Below, piece after piece: positions 9,925-63,559 of a stretch of 64,000 bases of DNA. The stretch comes from Clostridiales bacterium (GTDB lineage Bacteria > Bacillota > Clostridia > Oscillospirales > Acutalibacteraceae). The position numbers were made by a program, and so were the translations under genes. How positions within the stretch are numbered: position 1 is the stretch's first letter; the number at the start of each line of letters is the position of its first letter. The notes beneath the pieces were generated by a model. That model was not told where the DNA came from. It did not search any database and was given only the letters and a program-made list of their open reading frames with translations. Location of the stretch: assembly GCA_012839185.1 (NCBI GenBank), contig DUNU01000015.1, forward strand, positions 62,001-126,000, in the 5' to 3' direction.

Positions 9925-11514
9925 TTGTTTTGGAAATTGCTTAGGCTGAGATTTATTGAAATTTTCACTGCAAAGATTAATACAAACACAAAAGGGAAAA
10001 AGAAGGTTTCGTCAAGAATAATCAGTCTACTTGTTATGCTGTATGTTTTTGTGTTTTTCTCTTTTTCGTTTGCAAACACCTTTAATCAGATCATAGCTTT
10101 TGCTGAACCTGCATTATATCTTTCCGTTGTCTTTTGTTTAGCATTCTTTATCACATTTATGGGCTCAGTATTTACCGTTCAGTACAGGGTGTTTGAGCCG
10201 AAGGATAATGATTTGCTATTAAGTTTGCCGATAAAACCTCGTGATATTATTCTTTCGAGATTGATGTCAATATTTGTATATTCTCTGCTTTGGGAGGCAG
10301 CGGCATATGTTCCTGCGATAGTAGTTTGGGCAAGGTTTGAAAAACTGAATTTTTCCCATTATATTTTTGCTGTAACAGCCTTTTTTCTGCTTGGAATATT
10401 TACATTAACCGTATCATTCATTATTGCTGCATTTTTGCAGAGAGTTACACGAAATTTCAAAAATAAATCCGCAGTTATCACTGTGTTATCCGTTATAATG
10501 ATGCTTGGATATTTTGTTGTCTATTATGGCTTTAATTCAATCATTCGAGTGTTTGCTGACAATGTGGATAAGGTTGCAAATGTCTTTTCAACCTACTTGA
10601 AACCGATATATTATTTTGGAAAAACAGTTGCGGAAAACAATTTTTTATACTTGTCAATTTCTATCTTTATAATAGTCGGTCTGTTTCTTATCATTTTATA
10701 TTTTGTATCAAAAAACATTAGCAAGCTAAATGTAAAGACAAACGGAAAAGCAAATAAGAAATTTGAGCATAAAAAAGAAGACTATAATCAATCGTCGGTT
10801 GTCCGGACATTGATAAAAAAAGAAAGAAAACGATTTTTGTCGTCTTCCGTCTATTTTCTTAATGCAGGTTTGGGAGTTATCCTTACACCAATCATATTTT
10901 TAGTTCTTGCAATATATCCTAACTTTGTTTTGTTGTTCTCCACATCCTTCGGAATGATGCCACTTACACCTGCTACCTTTTGTGTGCTTATTATGATGCT
11001 TATGTCAACGGTTTTTATATCGGCTTGCTCAATAACTGTTGAAGGTAAGAGTTTTTGGATTGTAAGTTCTCTGCCCATAAACCCAAGACTTTTGCTTATA
11101 TCAAAAGCGTTGAATCACATAATTTTGGCAAGTGCCAGTTCACTAATTTCTTCATTATTTGCAATAGTTTTAACTATACGACTTGGAGTTTCTGATGCTT
11201 TCGGCTCAATTCTTTTGATTATATCACCGATTTCGCTTAATATTCTGATTGCCTTTGCAGGTGTTTTGGTTGATGCAATAAATCCGAGACTGAATGCAAG
11301 AGATGAAGTTAAAGCGATAAAACAAAATGTAACAGTCGGAATTTTTATGTTCATTGCTCTAATTATTGTTATCCTGTTAACATTGCCTGCTTTGATGCTG
11401 CCGCAGTATTCGTCTTTGATATTGCTTATTGAAACTATTGGTTTTTTGCTAATATCCGGAATTATTTTATTGTTGTTGAAGCGAGTTGCAAATCGACTTA
11501 TTCTAAAAAATTAG
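9925..11514 (+). CDS. Putative ABC-2-type exporter permease subunit
   Basis: 529 residues with about twelve hydrophobic segments in two groups separated by a charged cytoplasmic stretch near residues 265-300 (KTNGKANKKFEHKKED). The arrangement FEPKDNDLLLSLPIKPRDIILSR near residues 90-112 is typical of large ABC-2 export permeases in Clostridia, which move lipids, peptides or drugs. The start is TTG, chosen because AGGTGATAA precedes it and no ATG fits. No ATP-binding subunit is adjacent in this window, so it must use one encoded elsewhere or be a different kind of transporter. Confidence 0.75.
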   Translation: MFWKLLRLRFIEIFTAKINTNTKGKKKVSSRIISLLVMLYVFVFFSFSFANTFNQIIAFAEPALYLSVVFCLAFFITFMGSVFTVQYRVFEPKDNDLLLSLPIKPRDIILSRLMSIFVYSLLWEAAAYVPAIVVWARFEKLNFSHYIFAVTAFFLLGIFTLTVSFIIAAFLQRVTRNFKNKSAVITVLSVIMMLGYFVVYYGFNSIIRVFADNVDKVANVFSTYLKPIYYFGKTVAENNFLYLSISIFIIVGLFLIILYFVSKNISKLNVKTNGKANKKFEHKKEDYNQSSVVRTLIKKERKRFLSSSVYFLNAGLGVILTPIIFLVLAIYPNFVLLFSTSFGMMPLTPATFCVLIMMLMSTVFISACSITVEGKSFWIVSSLPINPRLLLISKALNHIILASASSLISSLFAIVLTIRLGVSDAFGSILLIISPISLNILIAFAGVLVDAINPRLNARDEVKAIKQNVTVGIFMFIALIIVILLTLPALMLPQYSSLILLIETIGFLLISGIILLLLKRVANRLILKN

Positions 11515-11552
11515 AATAACCACCGAAAAACCGGTGGTTATTTCTCTTCTTC
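11515..11552. terminator. Bidirectional terminator between permease and TetR genes
   Basis: 11-bp stem AATAACCACCG (11515-11525) / CGGTGGTTATT (11532-11542), followed by T-rich sequence. The distal arm contains the stop codon of the TetR gene. Confidence 0.85.
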
Positions 11553-12167
11553 TTTTTTTTTGTCTTTTTCCCCTTCATCTTCGTAAATATGTCCGACTGT
11601 GTTTCGGATTATATCCGAAAGAATTTGATTTAGTCTCTCAGGGCTGACCTCGATCGTACCGTTGAGCCAGTTAGTTAAAACTGTAGCAATAGCAGTAGTA
11701 TAGAAAATCACATATAATTTGACTTCACTGATTTGTTCGTTGGTTTCACCAGCATGGTTTTTCTTGTAATCTTCATCATTGAATACATTTATAAGTCGTT
11801 CTTGTAATTCTCTCAGAAACAGCACATTGTCTTTTGCCAAAAACAGAGCTTTGTAGTATTCAAAATCGCGGTCAATGTAAGCCATAAGTGTAGTAAAAAC
11901 AAATTCAGGCTCTCGAACAATCTCCATTACACCGTTTGCAATAAGATATTCGGAAAAAAGATTAAGCTCCTCATTGAGGATTACGTTCAGAAGTCCGTAA
12001 ACATCAGAATAATGTGCATAGAATGTCCCTCTGCTAATTCCTGCACGTTCAATTATATCTGTAACAGTAATTTTATCAATCTTCTTTTCGCGAAGAAGTT
12101 CTGCAAAAGCTTTTTTTATTAAGATTTTAGATCTTTTTGCACTGCGATATTCTGCTTTTTGAGCCAT
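11538..12167 (-). CDS. TetR/AcrR family transcriptional regulator
   Basis: 209 residues. The N-terminal helix-turn-helix shows ITVTDIIERAGISRGTFYAHYSD at about residues 34-56, the standard TetR DNA-binding signature. The remainder is an all-helical ligand domain of the TetR_C type, ending in a lysine/glutamate-rich tail (GEKDKKKEEEK). GGAGGAT precedes the ATG. It is convergent with the ABC permease, and the perfect palindrome upstream of that permease (9888-9904) is a plausible target. Ligand unknown. Confidence 0.92.
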   Translation of the reverse strand: MAQKAEYRSAKRSKILIKKAFAELLREKKIDKITVTDIIERAGISRGTFYAHYSDVYGLLNVILNEELNLFSEYLIANGVMEIVREPEFVFTTLMAYIDRDFEYYKALFLAKDNVLFLRELQERLINVFNDEDYKKNHAGETNEQISEVKLYVIFYTTAIATVLTNWLNGTIEVSPERLNQILSDIIRNTVGHIYEDEGEKDKKKEEEK

Positions 12168-12287
12168 TTAAGAATATCCTCCGGATAAATGTTATCTATA
12201 TATTACACCATTTTGTCAAAAAAGCAACATTCTCGAAATATAGTTTACAAAATATTAACATTTATGGCAAATAATCACAATAACTTA

Positions 12288-12818
12288 TCAGCAAAAACAG
12301 TTTCTATAGTTGTCAATACACTTTTGAATTACAGCGATAGCATTGTCTCTGTTTGTTGCTTCGTCAACAACTGTATCCTTGCCTTCAAGAGATTTGTATA
12401 CAGAAAAGAAATGAGTCATCTCTTCGAAAATATGCGGAGGTAGGTCAGATATATCTTTGTAAGTACAGTAGTTAGGATCGTTAAACGGAATGGCAATAAT
12501 TTTCTCGTCAACTTTGCCACCGTCAAGCATTGTAATAACTCCTATTGGATAGCAACGAACCATAGTAAGTTGATCAAGAGTGGATGAGCAGAGAACAAGG
12601 ACATCCAACGGATCGCCGTCATCGCCGAATGTTCTCGGGATAAAGCCGTAGTTAGCAGGGTAGTGCGTAGATGTATAAAGAATACGGTCAAGTATAAGCA
12701 TTCCGGTTTCTTTATCTAGTTCATATTTTTTCTTTGAGCCTTTTGGAATTTCAATTACCGCTATAAAATCTTCGGCTGAAATTCTTTTCGGATTCATGTC
12801 ATGCCAGATATCAGCCAT
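12288..12818 (-). CDS. ppa: Inorganic pyrophosphatase (family I)
   Basis: 176 residues, soluble family I pyrophosphatase hydrolysing PPi to phosphate with Mg2+. The signature GDDGDPLDVLVL (about 65-76) contains the catalytic aspartates; HYPANYGFIPRT just before it is also conserved. GGAGAAAA precedes the ATG. It is 12 bases downstream of proC and is probably the last gene of the queA-proBAC transcript. PPi removal would favour the ATP-using biosynthetic steps generally. Confidence 0.96.
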   Translation of the reverse strand: MADIWHDMNPKRISAEDFIAVIEIPKGSKKKYELDKETGMLILDRILYTSTHYPANYGFIPRTFGDDGDPLDVLVLCSSTLDQLTMVRCYPIGVITMLDGGKVDEKIIAIPFNDPNYCTYKDISDLPPHIFEEMTHFFSVYKSLEGKDTVVDEATNRDNAIAVIQKCIDNYRNCFC

Positions 12819-12830
12819 ATTTTTTCTCCG

Positions 12831-13613
12831 TTATAGATTTTTTGTTTTTTCGTATGTTGCTCGGACTGCGTCCATTACAATTCCTCGAAATGCACTGCTC
12901 TCAAGGACATTTACTCCTTCGATAGTTGTGCCGGCGGGACTGCACACCATATCTTTAATTTCTGCGGGTGTAAGTTCGTATTCCGTAACAAGACCGGCTG
13001 TTCCGTACATGGTTTGAGCAGCATAAATATATGCCGTATTGCGAGGAATTCCGCAAGCCACCAAACCATCAGCCATTGCCTCAATCATTACTGCGACAAA
13101 GGCAGGACCACTTCCGGTAACGGCAGATGCTGCATCAATTTTTGATTCTTCGATGATACAAATTTCACCCGCTTTTGAAAAATCAGTTTTGATTTGTTGT
13201 ATATCTTGGGTTGAAATCAATTTATTACCGGCACAGATAAGCATACCTTTACCGATAACACAGGGGATATTGGGCATAATTCTGAATATTGAGCGATTAC
13301 CGAGCAAGTTTTCAATTTTCTGTATTGATGTGCCTGCAAGCATTGAAATAATGCCGGTATTTTCTTTTAACAAAGGTTTTATTTCGTTTGCTAAATCTTC
13401 TAATCCCTGAGGTTTTATTCCGAGAACAATGTAGTCTGCGAAAGTGATAACATCCTCAATTGAGCCTTTTTTACAATTATATTTTGCAACAAATTCATCT
13501 CTGGCGGTTAAGTTTGTGTCTGTAACAATAACATTATTACTGTCAACAGTTTTTAAGACCGAAACAGCAAGAGCCAAACCCATTTTCCCGACACCGATAA
13601 AACCGTATTTCAT
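12831..13613 (-). CDS. proC: Pyrroline-5-carboxylate reductase
   Basis: 260 residues. Final step of proline synthesis, reducing 1-pyrroline-5-carboxylate with NAD(P)H. N-terminal Rossmann motif GFIGVGKMGLAL (4-15); the C-terminal dimer domain has AVTGSGPAFVAVMIEAMADG (about 163-182) and DMVCSPAGTTIEGV, both diagnostic. Its ATG overlaps the proA stop by four bases (ATGA). Confidence 0.97.
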   Translation of the reverse strand: MKYGFIGVGKMGLALAVSVLKTVDSNNVIVTDTNLTARDEFVAKYNCKKGSIEDVITFADYIVLGIKPQGLEDLANEIKPLLKENTGIISMLAGTSIQKIENLLGNRSIFRIMPNIPCVIGKGMLICAGNKLISTQDIQQIKTDFSKAGEICIIEESKIDAASAVTGSGPAFVAVMIEAMADGLVACGIPRNTAYIYAAQTMYGTAGLVTEYELTPAEIKDMVCSPAGTTIEGVNVLESSAFRGIVMDAVRATYEKTKNL

Positions 13614-14854
13614 CGAATTTGCCCCTTTCCTTTTACGACATAGTGATATGTCATAAGTTCGCGAAGTCCCATCGGACCCCTTGCGTGGAGTTTTTGAGTT
13701 GATATTCCCATCTCACATCCCAAACCGAACTCTCCGCCGTCTGTAAAACGAGTGGATGCATTGACATATACTGCGGCAGAATCAGTGTTGTTTAAGAAAT
13801 ATTCGGTAGCAACAGCATCATTTGATATTATTGCATCGCTGTGTCCGGTTGCATGAATTGAAATATGTTCAACGGCTTCTTTATATGAGTTGACAATTTT
13901 AATAGCCAAAATGTAATCTAAAAATTCGGTATCAAAGCTATCCTCATCAGCGGGATTTGCAGGAATAATTTTACAAACTTCCTCATCACCGATAATTCTT
14001 ACGGGATTTGGCGTATCTTTTGTGAGTTTGTCGTATAGTTTCGGTAGGAAATCAGCAGCTATGTCTTTATCTATGACACAAACCTCACAAGCATTGCATA
14101 CAGAAGGACGAGAAGTTTTTGCATTGTGAATAATATTAAGTGCCATATCAAAATCCGCTGTTTTTTCAACATAGATATGACAAATTCCCGTACCGGTTGC
14201 AATGCAGTTAACTTTTGCATTTTCAATACAAGCACGAATTAAACCTTTTCCGCCTCTGGGAATAAGCAAATCTATATATCCGACTGCAGTCATCATGTCA
14301 ATAGAGCTTTGACGGGTAGTATCATCAATAAGTTGAACTGCATCTGGATTTATATTTGATTTTTCAAGACCGCGACGAAGAGCATTTACAATAGCTTTTG
14401 CTGAATTATACGCCTCTTTTCCGCTTCTTAACACACATACATTAGAACTTTTGAAACATAGGACAGCAGCATCGCTTGTAACATTCGGTCTGCTTTCGTA
14501 AATTATGCCGATAACCCCCATGGGTACCAAAGTCTTTTCAATAACAAGACCGTTTGGGCGTGTTACGGTTTCTAATATTTCACCATTTGGATCCGGCAAG
14601 GCGGCAACTTCTCGCATACCCTTTGCCATACCTTCAATTCGCTCAACACTTAATGCTAAACGATCAATCATGGCATCTGAAATTACGCCCTTTGCTTTTT
14701 CAATATCGATAGCATTGTTTTTAAGTATTTCGTCGGTACTGTTAATCAGTTCGACTGCCATATTCTCAATGGCTGCATTTTTTATCTCGGTTGACAGATT
14801 CCGTATTTCAGAAACTGCCGCATGTGCATTTTTGAATATTTCCAGTGTAGTCAT
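13610..14854 (-). CDS. proA: Glutamate-5-semialdehyde dehydrogenase (gamma-glutamyl phosphate reductase)
   Basis: 414 residues, second step of proline synthesis: NADPH-dependent reduction of glutamyl-5-phosphate. Recognised by GVIGIIYESRPNVTSDAAVLC near residues 107-127, the catalytic-cysteine region SVCNACEVC near 249-257, and the C-terminal ASTRFTDGGEFGLGCEMGIS. AGGAGAAAA precedes the ATG. Lies 28 bases after proB and overlaps proC. Confidence 0.97.
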   Translation of the reverse strand: MTTLEIFKNAHAAVSEIRNLSTEIKNAAIENMAVELINSTDEILKNNAIDIEKAKGVISDAMIDRLALSVERIEGMAKGMREVAALPDPNGEILETVTRPNGLVIEKTLVPMGVIGIIYESRPNVTSDAAVLCFKSSNVCVLRSGKEAYNSAKAIVNALRRGLEKSNINPDAVQLIDDTTRQSSIDMMTAVGYIDLLIPRGGKGLIRACIENAKVNCIATGTGICHIYVEKTADFDMALNIIHNAKTSRPSVCNACEVCVIDKDIAADFLPKLYDKLTKDTPNPVRIIGDEEVCKIIPANPADEDSFDTEFLDYILAIKIVNSYKEAVEHISIHATGHSDAIISNDAVATEYFLNNTDSAAVYVNASTRFTDGGEFGLGCEMGISTQKLHARGPMGLRELMTYHYVVKGKGQIR

Positions 14855-14882
14855 TATTTTCTCCTGTTCTTAAAACATTTGG

Positions 14883-15650
14883 TCAGGCTTTACCATAGAA
14901 CCTTGTGCCAACATCCTTATCTTCAACAATATCATACAAAACAGTCGGATTTGAGCCGTTTGCAATGACCATATCAATGCCGGCGTCCATAACTTTCTTT
15001 GCTGCAAGCAGTTTAGTTTTCATTCCGCCTGTGCCAAGCTCGGAGCCTTTGCCTGCACCCATTTGCAGAATGTCTTCATCAATTTCATAGACATCTTTTA
15101 TCAAAACAGCATCGGGATTAGTCTTGGGGTTGCAATCATACAGCCCGTCAATGTCTGAGAGCAAAATAAGCAAATTAGCACCGATGCTTGTGGCAACTAT
15201 TGCTGCCAATGAATCGTTATCTCCGATACCCAATTCAGCAGTGGAAACAGTATCATTTTCGTTGATAATTGGCAATGCATTAAGTTCAAGCAAACGATTG
15301 ATGGTGTTGCGGAAATTGTTAAGTGCTTCGTCATCATTGACAACGGAGTTTGTAATCAGAATTTGTGCAATAGTGTGATTGTATTTGGAAAATTGACGGT
15401 CATAGACATACATAAGCTCACACTGACCTATTGCTGCAACTGCTTGTTTTGTGGGGATATCTTCGGGACGTTTGGACATGGAAAGTTTGCCCACACCCAT
15501 ACCGATTGAACCTGATGTAACCAAAATAACTTCATGACCGGAATTTTTAAGGTCACTGATTACTTTACATAGAGTTTCAAATCTGCGAATATTTAATAAA
15601 CCGGCTTCATGTGTTAATGTTGAAGTTCCGATTTTGATAACAACTTTCAT
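14883..15650 (-). CDS. proB: Glutamate 5-kinase, short form without PUA domain
   Basis: 255 residues. Phosphorylates glutamate with ATP, the committed and usually proline-inhibited step. VVIKIGTSTL at the N-terminus, LVTSGSIGMG, INENDTVST and GTGGMKTKLLAA are amino acid kinase family landmarks. The protein stops after the kinase domain; the C-terminal PUA domain of the E. coli enzyme (about 367 residues) is absent, as in many Firmicutes. ATG at 15648-15650 is chosen because AGGTGAT precedes it; an upstream GTG would sit on that site. Confidence 0.95.
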   Translation of the reverse strand: MKVVIKIGTSTLTHEAGLLNIRRFETLCKVISDLKNSGHEVILVTSGSIGMGVGKLSMSKRPEDIPTKQAVAAIGQCELMYVYDRQFSKYNHTIAQILITNSVVNDDEALNNFRNTINRLLELNALPIINENDTVSTAELGIGDNDSLAAIVATSIGANLLILLSDIDGLYDCNPKTNPDAVLIKDVYEIDEDILQMGAGKGSELGTGGMKTKLLAAKKVMDAGIDMVIANGSNPTVLYDIVEDKDVGTRFYGKA

Positions 15651-15667
15651 AAAAATCACCTTTTGTG

Positions 15668-16690
15668 TCAGATAATAATCATTGCATCGCCAAAACTGAA
15701 GAATCGATATTTTTCTTCAACAGCGATTTTGTATGCATTAAGTACATTTTCACGCCCTGCAAATGCGGATACTAGCATAATTAGGGTGCTTTCGGGGAGA
15801 TGAAAATTTGTAATAAGTCCGTCAATACACTTAAATTTGTATGGAGGATATATGAAAATATTTGTATCTTGAGATACCTCTTTGAGAAAACCATCTTTAT
15901 TGACAGCGGATTCAAGCGTTCTTGTGCATGTTGTGCCGACGGCAATAACCCTTCCGCCGTTTTGTTTTGTTCTATTGATTAAATCAGCGGTAGTTTGAGG
16001 AATATGATAAAACTCAGAGTGCATCTTATGGTCTTCAACATTTTCGGTTTTTACCGGTCTGAATGTTCCAATTCCGACATGTAGGGTAACAAAGGCTATG
16101 TTTATTCCCCTATTTTTAATTTCATCGAGAAGTTGAGGTGTAAAATGAAATCCTGCCGTTGGTGCAGCTGCGGAGCCTGATTCTTTTGCATAAACGGTTT
16201 GATAACGGTCTTTATCTTGAAGTTTTTCCGTAATGTAGTGGGGAAGCGGCATTTCTCCGATTTCATTGAGAATATCCATAAATATTCCGTCATAATTAAA
16301 TTTAACAAGTCGATTACCGTTTTCAAGAACATCAACAATATCAGCCGTCATTTGAGGACAAAAATCAAATTTTGTGCCTTTTGTTGCTCGTTTACCGGGA
16401 CCTGTGATACATTCCCAAACATCATCACCCATATCTTTAAGCAATAGAAATTCAACTTTTGCACCGGTGGGATTTTTTATACCGTATATTCTTGCGGGTA
16501 AGACTTTTGTATCATTTAATACAAGACAATCGCCCGGTTTTAAGAATTTTACAACGTCGTAAAAATGCAGATGTTCAATCTTTCCCGTAGCCTTATCCAT
16601 GTAAAGCAATCTGCTTGAAGAACGTTCTTTTAACGGATGTTGAGCAATAAGCTCTTCGGGTAAGTCGTAAAAAAAGTCCGATTTTTTCAT
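15668..16690 (-). CDS. queA: S-adenosylmethionine:tRNA ribosyltransferase-isomerase
   Basis: 340 residues. Transfers the ribose of SAM to 7-aminomethyl-7-deazaguanine in tRNA to make epoxyqueuosine. [43 protein letters not shown] and [17 protein letters not shown] are diagnostic. GGAG precedes the ATG at 16688-16690; longer starts would run through the promoter. It is the first gene of the queA-proB-proA-proC-ppa unit; no other queuosine gene is nearby. Confidence 0.97.
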
Positions 16691-16708
16691 TTGAACTCCG
16701 AAAATGTA

Positions 16709-16737
16709 TTGACTAAAAATTGAAAATATGTTATGAT
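16709..16737 (+). promoter_or_regulatory. Promoter for asd-dapA operon
   Basis: TTGACT (16709-16714) and TATGAT (16732-16737), spacer 17; predicted transcript start near 16744. It overlaps the region into which the divergent queA promoter fires. Confidence 0.65.
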
Positions 16738-16742
16738 ATATT

Positions 16743-16771
16743 AGTATACACCAAACGGTGTAGAATTTCAA
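16743..16771 (-). promoter_or_regulatory. Promoter for queA-proBAC-ppa
   Basis: Minus strand TTGAAA (16766-16771) and TATACT (16743-16748), spacer 17. The spacer contains almost all of the palindrome at 16747-16762. Confidence 0.65.
16747..16762. promoter_or_regulatory. Palindrome shared by queA-pro and asd-dapA promoters
   Basis: TACACC-AAAC-GGTGTA. It lies within the -35/-10 spacer of the queA promoter and at about +4 to +19 of the asd transcript, so one bound repressor could block both operons. As RNA it could instead form a 6-bp 5' hairpin. The binding protein is unknown. Confidence 0.5.
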
Positions 16772-16797
16772 GCTTTTTTTATTCAGGAGAAACATTT

Positions 16798-17880
16798 ATG
16801 AAACAGTACAATGTAGGTATTATCGGTGCAACAGGTATGGTCGGTCAGAGGTTTGCTCTGATTTTGGAAAATCATCCGTGGTTTAAGGTTACGGCTCTTG
16901 CTGCCAGTTCTCGCTCTGCAGGCAAGACATATGCCGAAGCTGTCGGTGATCGTTGGAAAATCCTCACACCGATGCCTGAAAAATATAAAGACATGATTAT
17001 CCTCGATGCAGATAAAGACATCGACAAGATGAAAGAACTTGTTGATTTTGTTTTCTGTGCTGTTGATATGAAAAAAGATGAAATCAAGGCTCTTGAGGAA
17101 CGCTATGCGAAAGCAGAGATTCCCGTAATGTCAAATAACTCAGCCCACAGATTCACTCCCGATGTGCCGATGCTTATTCCCGAAATTAACGATGCTCACG
17201 CAGATGTTATTTATGACCAGAGAAAGCGATTAGGAACGAAGAAAGGATTTATTGCTGTTAAATCCAACTGTTCTTTGCAGTCCTATGTTCCTGCTATTTA
17301 TCCGCTTGATGAGAAGTTTGGGGTAAAGGATGTTCTTGTCTCAACTTATCAGGCTATTTCCGGTGCAGGAAAGACTTTTGACTCTTGGCCCGAAATGATT
17401 GATAACTGCATTCCCTATATCGGCGGTGAAGAAGAAAAGAGCGAAAAAGAGCCTTTGAAGATTTGGGGCAAGATTGAAAACGGAGAAATCGCTCTTGCAG
17501 GCAGACCGAATTTCACTGCACAATGCATACGTGTTCCCGTATCGGATGGTCATCTTGCCGCTGTTTTTGTGCGTTTTGACAAGAAACCCACCAAGGATGA
17601 AATTCTTGATATCTGGACAAACTTTAAGGGTGCTCCTCAAGAACTTAAACTTCCTTCTGCTCCTGAAATTTTCTTAAAATATTATGAAGAAGATAATATG
17701 CCACAAACAAAGTTAGTTCGTGATAATGAGAATGGAATGCAGGTATCTATCGGTCGTCTTCGTGAAGATACGCAATACGACTATAAGTTTGTTTGCATTT
17801 CTCATAATACTTTACGCGGTGCCGCAGGTGGTGCGGTTTTGATGGCTGAACTTCTTTGTGCAAAAGGATTTGTTGACTAA
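16798..17880 (+). CDS. asd: Aspartate-semialdehyde dehydrogenase
   Basis: 360 residues, reduces aspartyl-4-phosphate with NADPH, the branch point to lysine/diaminopimelate, threonine and methionine. GIIGATGMVGQRF (8-20) is the NADP site; the catalytic cysteine is C158 in KSNCSLQSY and the base is in VPVSDGHLA. Overall it resembles the archaeal/fungal-type Asd subgroup. AGGAGAAAC precedes the ATG at 16798; an in-frame upstream ATG would fall within the promoter. First gene of a probable five-gene operon. Confidence 0.95.
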   Translation: MKQYNVGIIGATGMVGQRFALILENHPWFKVTALAASSRSAGKTYAEAVGDRWKILTPMPEKYKDMIILDADKDIDKMKELVDFVFCAVDMKKDEIKALEERYAKAEIPVMSNNSAHRFTPDVPMLIPEINDAHADVIYDQRKRLGTKKGFIAVKSNCSLQSYVPAIYPLDEKFGVKDVLVSTYQAISGAGKTFDSWPEMIDNCIPYIGGEEEKSEKEPLKIWGKIENGEIALAGRPNFTAQCIRVPVSDGHLAAVFVRFDKKPTKDEILDIWTNFKGAPQELKLPSAPEIFLKYYEEDNMPQTKLVRDNENGMQVSIGRLREDTQYDYKFVCISHNTLRGAAGGAVLMAELLCAKGFVD

Positions 17881-21744: not shown

Positions 21745-21848
21745 TCACCTTATTAAAGAGCAGTGGAGGGAACGGCCCTATGAAACTGCAGCAACCTACA
21801 TTTGCAAGGTGCCAAATCCGACGGTTTAAGCCGAGAGATAAGGGTATC
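21745..21848 (+). ncRNA. SAM-I (S-box) riboswitch
   Basis: The conserved core is plain: GCAGTGGAGGGAACGGCCC with ATGAAACTGCAGCAACC, then AAGGTGCCAAATCC and GAGAGATAAGG. P1 pairs ACCTTAT at the 5' end with ATAAGGGT at the 3' end. It precedes metK, so high SAM should shut off SAM synthetase expression through the terminator at 21849-21878. Confidence 0.96.
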
Positions 21849-63069: not shown

Positions 63070-63098
63070 TTGATTTTTCTTTAATTTTATGTTATACT
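63070..63098 (+). promoter_or_regulatory. Promoter for the SAM riboswitch-91 aa gene transcript
   Basis: TTGATT (63070-63075) and TATACT (63093-63098), spacer 17, immediately upstream of the riboswitch. Confidence 0.7.
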
Positions 63099-63101
63099 GT
63101 T

Positions 63102-63192
63102 ATCACCATATAGAGTGCGTGAGGGACAAGCCCGTTGACCGCACAGCAACCTGCCGAAAGGTAAGGTGCTAATGCTTGATCGATGGGGTGAT
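63102..63192 (+). ncRNA. SAM-I-type (S-box or SAM-I/IV variant) riboswitch
   Basis: Core matches the SAM-I family: GTGCG-TGAGGGA-CAA-GCCC-GTTGAC-CGCAC forms P2 with the kink, then AGCAACCT, a GAAA-capped P3, and AAGGTGCTAA. P1 pairs ATCACCAT (63102-63109) with ATGGGGTGAT (63183-63192). P4 seems short or missing, which may place it in the SAM-I/IV variant. Followed by a terminator, as for an off-switch. Confidence 0.85.
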
Positions 63193-63207
63193 GAATTATT
63201 GATTTTC

Positions 63208-63240
63208 AAATCCTGTCGGTAACGATGGGATTTTTCGTTT
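63208..63240 (+). terminator. Riboswitch-associated terminator
   Basis: AAATCCTGTCG (63208-63218) pairs with CGATGGGATTT (63223-63233), GTAA tetraloop, two G-U pairs, followed by TTCGTTT. Confidence 0.82.
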
Positions 63241-63283
63241 CCTCTGTATTCTGTATGGTAATAAATTATATGGAGGAAATATA

Positions 63284-63559
63284 ATGTTTAACCTTTCAGA
63301 ATTTGCAAAAAGCAACAGCAAACCTATTTTTGTTTACCTTGCCGACAATCAGACGGCTTTGCGTTTTCTGCAAGATGTTGAAAATCAGGGCTTCACATTT
63401 CCAGATGGCACAAAACCAACTGAAAAACAGCCGAATTCATTCTTTGCTGTTCATTCCGATATGTCAATAAATTATATTGGCTTTATTGGTCGGATAGCAT
63501 ATCAGTGTAAATCCGGTAGTATTATTCGTCTGGATTATGCTGAAAAAATAGCGGAGTGA
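63284..63559 (+). CDS. 91-residue protein of unknown function under SAM riboswitch
   Basis: 91 residues, no membrane segment, no signal peptide. Composition is ordinary soluble with a glycine/aromatic centre (SINYIGFIGRIAYQCKSGS). I see no catalytic or metal-binding motif and only one cysteine. GGAGGAAATATA gives a strong ribosome site. It is the only gene on a transcript starting with a SAM-I-type riboswitch and its terminator; no methionine or transport gene follows in the window. Confidence 0.8.
   Translation: MFNLSEFAKSNSKPIFVYLADNQTALRFLQDVENQGFTFPDGTKPTEKQPNSFFAVHSDMSINYIGFIGRIAYQCKSGSIIRLDYAEKIAE

Follow-up and report, generated by a model that had tools for sequence, protein, structure and literature searches.

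S-box riboswitches are the textbook control of methionine and S-adenosylmethionine (SAM) genes. Among the classes closest to the one considered here, SAM-I/IV aptamers have an undivided P2, lack the pseudoknot PK-1 and possess a P4 stem, and SAM-IV aptamers have PK-2 and P5 downstream of P1 and a four-nucleotide turn; the SAM-contact positions of SAM-I are listed in the same source (PMC6890682). A known variant class of SAM-I has switched its ligand to spermidine, with changes in J1/2 and the P3 loop; these variants keep four stems, and the study describing them also used a metK construct (PMC10853860).

The locus described here lies in a 64,000-nucleotide stretch of DNA from a Clostridiales bacterium (the window), in which a SAM-I-type riboswitch with a promoter, an 11-bp terminator and one small open reading frame (ORF) with a strong ribosome site, and with no methionine gene, had originally been predicted. 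These elements are all present, together with a second hairpin that was absent from the original prediction; coordinates, strand and basis are as follows.

21747-21844, + strand: the other SAM-I riboswitch of the genome, P4 present, upstream of metK (RF00162)
63070-63098, + strand: promoter-like site TTGATT-17-TATACT, TG-extended and sigma-70-like (consensus match only)
63097-63195, + strand: P4-less SAM-I aptamer (RF00162 match, family model R1, covariation)
63183-63194, + strand: P1 3' strand, able to pair with the 5' arm of the terminator (antiterminator; duplex energy)
63208-63235, + strand: intrinsic terminator, 11-bp stem and U run, called at 63208-63233 by the finder (hairpin finder)
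about 63237-63280, + strand: second hairpin pairing TTTCCTC with the Shine-Dalgarno sequence GAGGAAA (leader comparison)
63284-63559, + strand: 91-codon ORF with Shine-Dalgarno sequence (SD) GGAGG, encoding a 91-aa orphan protein with an alpha/beta fold (translation, homologues, AlphaFold2)

The promoter-like site alone is weak evidence, because shuffled sequences yield such sites as often. No methionine gene lies downstream of the window switch, and no recognisable prophage surrounds this copy of the gene. Only two SAM-I switches occur in the source genome (1.93 Mb, 98% complete), so the S-box regulon of this organism consists of metK and the gene for the 91-aa protein.

Positions 63103-63189 score 57.3 bits with RF00162 (SAM-I), whose cut-off is 44.4 (E 1.3e-10; Rfam, cmscan), the best score of any SAM-clan model; RF01725 (SAM-I/IV), at 35.7 against 41.1, falls below its cut-off. 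The covariance search proposed with the original prediction thus places the core within the SAM clan. The family covariance model R1, built from 31 aptamers, gives the window aptamer 106.3 bits, a score to be read with the window's membership of the training set. The aptamer comprises P1, P2a/P2b with a kink-turn-like bulge, P3 and a CAAG/CUUG pseudoknot. P4 had been described as reduced; it is indeed altered, but the stem, part of the four-way junction, is absent altogether from the window and from every aligned family leader. The P4 that appears in RF00162 matches of 117-124 nt was rejected as an artefact in which the model threads P4/P1 through the terminator. The window aptamer is a P4-less variant of SAM-I and not a standard member; no description of such a subclass was found in the open-access literature, the part covered by the search.

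The pseudoknot between the P2 loop and J3/4 is paired in 31/31 sequences, with compensatory changes at 2/4 pairs; both sides are altered in 5/31 sequences (CAAG/CUUG, CAGA/UCUG, CAGC/GCUG), and P1 and P2b covary as well. Across 82 aptamers the contact positions A6, U7, G11, A12, C44, A46, C47, U57, G58, A87 and U88 are invariant, and the exceptions are C8 to A in 65, A45 to G in 6 and C59 to G in 12. With C8 replaced by A in 65/82 aptamers, the ligand-adjacent C8-G86 pair is usually lost, and this systematic change is the chief ground for doubting SAM as the ligand. J1/2 and the P3 internal loop, the parts that differ in the spermidine class, keep their SAM-I form here, and SAM therefore very probably remains the ligand.

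Downstream of the aptamer, the P1 3' strand (CCGATRGG in the family consensus) can pair with the 5' arm of the terminator; the duplex energy is -10.8 kcal/mol in the window against -5.3 for shuffles, and averages -10.5 kcal/mol over 68 leaders, compared with -5.5 when the arms are shuffled, a signal diluted by about a dozen leaders in which the SD hairpin was chosen and not the terminator. Terminators were found in 68/76 leaders (none in the other 8 with the finder used), and the region contains two such sites, as opposed to 0.5 in shuffles. The predicted layout is that of a typical S-box OFF switch. In 67.5% of 80 family leaders the whole SD lies within paired sequence, as against 9.6% of 228 control genes (other genes of the same loci); the upstream partner of the SD is a CTCTTT-like motif, both sides of the hairpin change together in 5/7 pairs, and the same SD-sequestering hairpin precedes unrelated genes under the P4-less switch.

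The protein was originally called unrecognised, and no significant profile match was found in Pfam, NCBIfam, PHROGs, PADLOC or the PDB; among the weak matches are phage families of unknown function, the best hint being phrog_28738, also of unknown function (6/48 relatives match, best E 2.6e-4). A single-sequence search of the genome contigs returned no match, and homologues were found by profile search: one draw of 300 genomes of the same taxonomic family yielded 30 family genes in 24 genomes, and four genomes elsewhere in the class also carry homologues. The 49 named genome loci belong to Clostridia wherever a group is named (two are named only as Bacillota), including Ruminococcus, Oscillospiraceae and Lachnospiraceae. 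The one congeneric genome compared lacks the family gene, and a flanking neighbour gene has no orthologue there; a plasmid search gave no match. A median pN/pS of 0.23 over 98 close, non-independent pairs, with conserved residues that include F28, E33, G36, D41, G42, P45, G66 and G69, indicates purifying selection and a real protein family. Structure prediction, suggested with the original prediction, gave a mean pLDDT of 93.5 from a 48-sequence alignment (AlphaFold2); a PDB fold search with the model found nothing significant (best Z 3.0), and its best Foldseek matches are small uncharacterised phage proteins. A search of the open-access literature yielded no description of the family, and a protein family whose synthesis is predicted to be confined to low SAM appears so far to be undescribed.

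Several relatives have other architectures. Two family domains stand in tandem at L041 (1396-2013) and L043 (5135-5749), and at L085 (6319-6915) the domain is fused to an extra C-terminal part. At L066 (7908-8225) and L088 (6999-7184) the C-terminal part of the family protein is joined to a lipoprotein-like leader, without a riboswitch and downstream of a flavodoxin-like gene.

Switch and gene recur together. In the 300-genome draw, 27/30 family genes have an R1 match of at least 83 bits directly upstream, the others being G276:C128 and two copies on G087:C2; in the 49 named loci, which overlap partly with that draw so that the two counts are not independent, a complete aptamer is present at 41, a truncated one at two (L057, where the contig ends, and L042, of which the 3' half alone is left) and no aptamer at six. 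Most homologue loci score above the RF00162 cut-off. Conservation of the riboswitch upstream of homologues, the check named in the original prediction, is thus seen in both samples, which consist mainly of genes carrying the switch and not of switchless homologues in unrelated contexts. Among loci without an aptamer, L058 still has a hairpin of terminator type, and L075 has a short stretch similar to the 3' half of the aptamer, remnants that suggest decay or recombination of the leader. In the leaders of L042, L058 and L075 the 5' part of the aptamer has been replaced. The viral homologues first found, on eight IMG/VR contigs and in Ruminococcus phage NatCom_28274, all have the aptamer (9/9), and a separate DNA-pattern scan of viral contigs gave 14 stretches, including one from a contig of the earlier set.

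The surroundings of the gene vary. The next gene is on the same strand in 33/57 loci, and bacterial copies occupy diverse positions, with relaxases or recombinases close to some of them and no methylase next to many. A single phage lineage has the gene in convergent orientation to a C5 DNA methylase gene, which the end of the gene overlaps, followed by an N6/N4 methylase; on three IMG/VR contigs (L091, L093, L095) a MetK homologue (PF00438) stands beside the two methylases. A constant association of gene and methylase was considered and rejected, this arrangement being found in that one phage lineage only. By its distribution the gene is evidently accessory, patchy and carried by phages, and does not belong to the core methionine genes. 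At L034, Cas9-like (1354 aa), Cas1-, Cas2- and Csn2-like ORFs, recognised from sequence, occupy 11339-17284, about 3.8 kb downstream of the gene and just past the end of the window.

The original prediction also held the switch to be dedicated to the 91-aa protein, which is nearly right for the gene but not for the RNA. R1 matches above 75 bits in the 300 genomes number 43, of which 27 precede the 91-aa family; the P4-less RNA is not dedicated, because it also precedes metK (L130), an amidohydrolase gene (L124/L164) and several unrelated small orphans (L151, L160, L161, and another on the phage contig L143). The amidohydrolase resembles MTA/SAH deaminases on reading of its sequence, Pfam giving only amidohydrolase; an N-formylglutamate amidohydrolase gene (L121/L163) is also preceded by the aptamer. 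Of 14 inspected matches of 53-66 bits, 13 precede metK and one (L168) ends at the aptamer; two of those before metK (L165, L169) are P4-less too and less closely related. We infer that P4-less metK-type leaders may be a lineage reused in front of accessory genes. A second orphan family of about 140 aa, with the motif FRTGDGRVYFSICDGWGEKDG, is found under the same P4-less switch at L156, L157, L158, L154, L159 and on the phage contig L140. At two loci in two genera (L005 below 377 and L153 below 1704, both on the - strand) a P4-less SAM-I aptamer is followed only by a conserved 11-codon ORF, MxENKRxYKPP.

The reading that we prefer, with a probability of roughly 0.6, is a SAM-OFF attenuator without P4 that makes an accessory protein of phage or mobile-element type during SAM shortage. 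With SAM bound, P1 would form and leave the terminator free to fold, turning the gene off; without SAM, the P1 3' strand would pair with the terminator 5' arm and transcription would proceed, both steps being strongly supported by comparison of the leader sequences. That the second hairpin would conceal the ribosome site and hold translation low too is supported by the leader comparison, as is, by its patchy occurrence in Clostridia and their phages, the assignment of the product as a small accessory protein of this type. The protein is thus presumably made when SAM is scarce; our guess is that its target is restriction or methylation, or that it saves SAM. An action on a SAM-dependent process, most likely the balance of DNA methylation and restriction, is a tentative further step, which would include, for example, holding back a restriction enzyme or a methyltransferase at times when SAM does not suffice for complete methylation; it leans mainly on one phage lineage, because many bacterial copies are not beside methylases. 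Equally speculative is the wider proposal of a SAM-depletion regulon borne by clostridial phages and mobile elements, in which the P4-less switch precedes several unrelated small effectors that would oppose restriction or restore the methylation balance just when there is not enough SAM to methylate the DNA of these elements.

Other readings account for parts of these observations. It is possible, if doubtful, that the protein is a host factor of SAM homeostasis that boosts MetK or methionine uptake or brakes methyltransferases, with no phage-host conflict: metK is the sole co-regulated SAM-I gene in the genome, metK and the deaminase-like gene stand elsewhere under the same P4-less leader, and a metK gene is nearby in phages; yet a patchy gene (24/300 genomes of the same family, absent from a congeneric genome) that occurs in phages, under a switch common to several unrelated small proteins, is not what such a factor predicts. 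Sensing of a related ligand such as SAH, decarboxylated SAM or a polyamine is unlikely: the systematic change of C8 to A, the loss of P4 and the precedent of the spermidine-sensing variants (PMC10853860) speak for it, but the remaining contact positions are nearly invariant and J1/2 and the P3 internal loop are intact, unlike those of the spermidine class. The presence of metK under the same form also argues against another ligand, although not decisively, because the spermidine study used a metK construct as well (PMC10853860).

A tightly locked toxin-like protein, whose leakage would be blocked by the terminator and the concealed ribosome site and whose release on loss of SAM would lead to growth arrest or abortive infection, would fit the conserved SD-sequestering hairpin and the accessory distribution; it is nevertheless improbable, given that no toxin or defence family match was found and that no cognate partner gene recurs. 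The transcript might matter instead of the protein, by acting under SAM control as antisense RNA against the convergent gene, in the manner reported for the Clostridium ubiG S-box antisense RNA; that precedent and the overlap of the phage gene end with the convergent methylase gene notwithstanding, this is very improbable, as the median pN/pS and the conserved residues point to a selected protein and at many loci the gene that follows has the same orientation.

A P4-less subclass of SAM-I is tied here to an undescribed protein family of bacteria and phages (27/30 in one draw), a switch-plus-gene pair that recurs in gut and rumen Clostridia and their phages, and also to unrelated small proteins. 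A riboswitch of known ligand class upstream of an unknown gene is a direct handle on function, and the proteins under the P4-less switch are predicted to be made only at low SAM. Should the association with methylases and MetK in phages prove true, metabolite sensing would be joined to the contest of restriction and modification.

Compared with known systems, the protein has a predicted fold similar to those of uncharacterised small phage proteins such as D4N4K7 of Leuconostoc phage 1-A4 (Foldseek probability 1.00, TM 0.59/0.65, E 0.023); a sequence comparison with an 81-aa ORF of that phage, taken for D4N4K7 because of its length, showed no significant similarity. Among riboswitches, the spermidine variants are likewise divergent SAM-I aptamers that switch expression off by termination, but they have four stems and an altered J1/2 and P3 loop, whereas the window aptamer has lost P4 and keeps J1/2 and the P3 loop. 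SAM-I/IV (RF01725) shares the clan and the core, and differs in that P2a/P2b and the pseudoknot are present here and P4 is absent. SAM-IV resembles the window aptamer in lacking P4 and in having PK-1 and P2a/P2b; the best clan match is nevertheless RF00162, and PK-2, P5 and the four-nucleotide turn are features of SAM-IV in the published description. With SAM-I (RF00162) itself the locus shares the core, the kink-turn region, the pseudoknot, the ligand contacts and the terminator/antiterminator OFF logic, and it departs from that class in the absence of P4, the predominance of A at C8, the extra SD-sequestering hairpin and the control of orphan small proteins.
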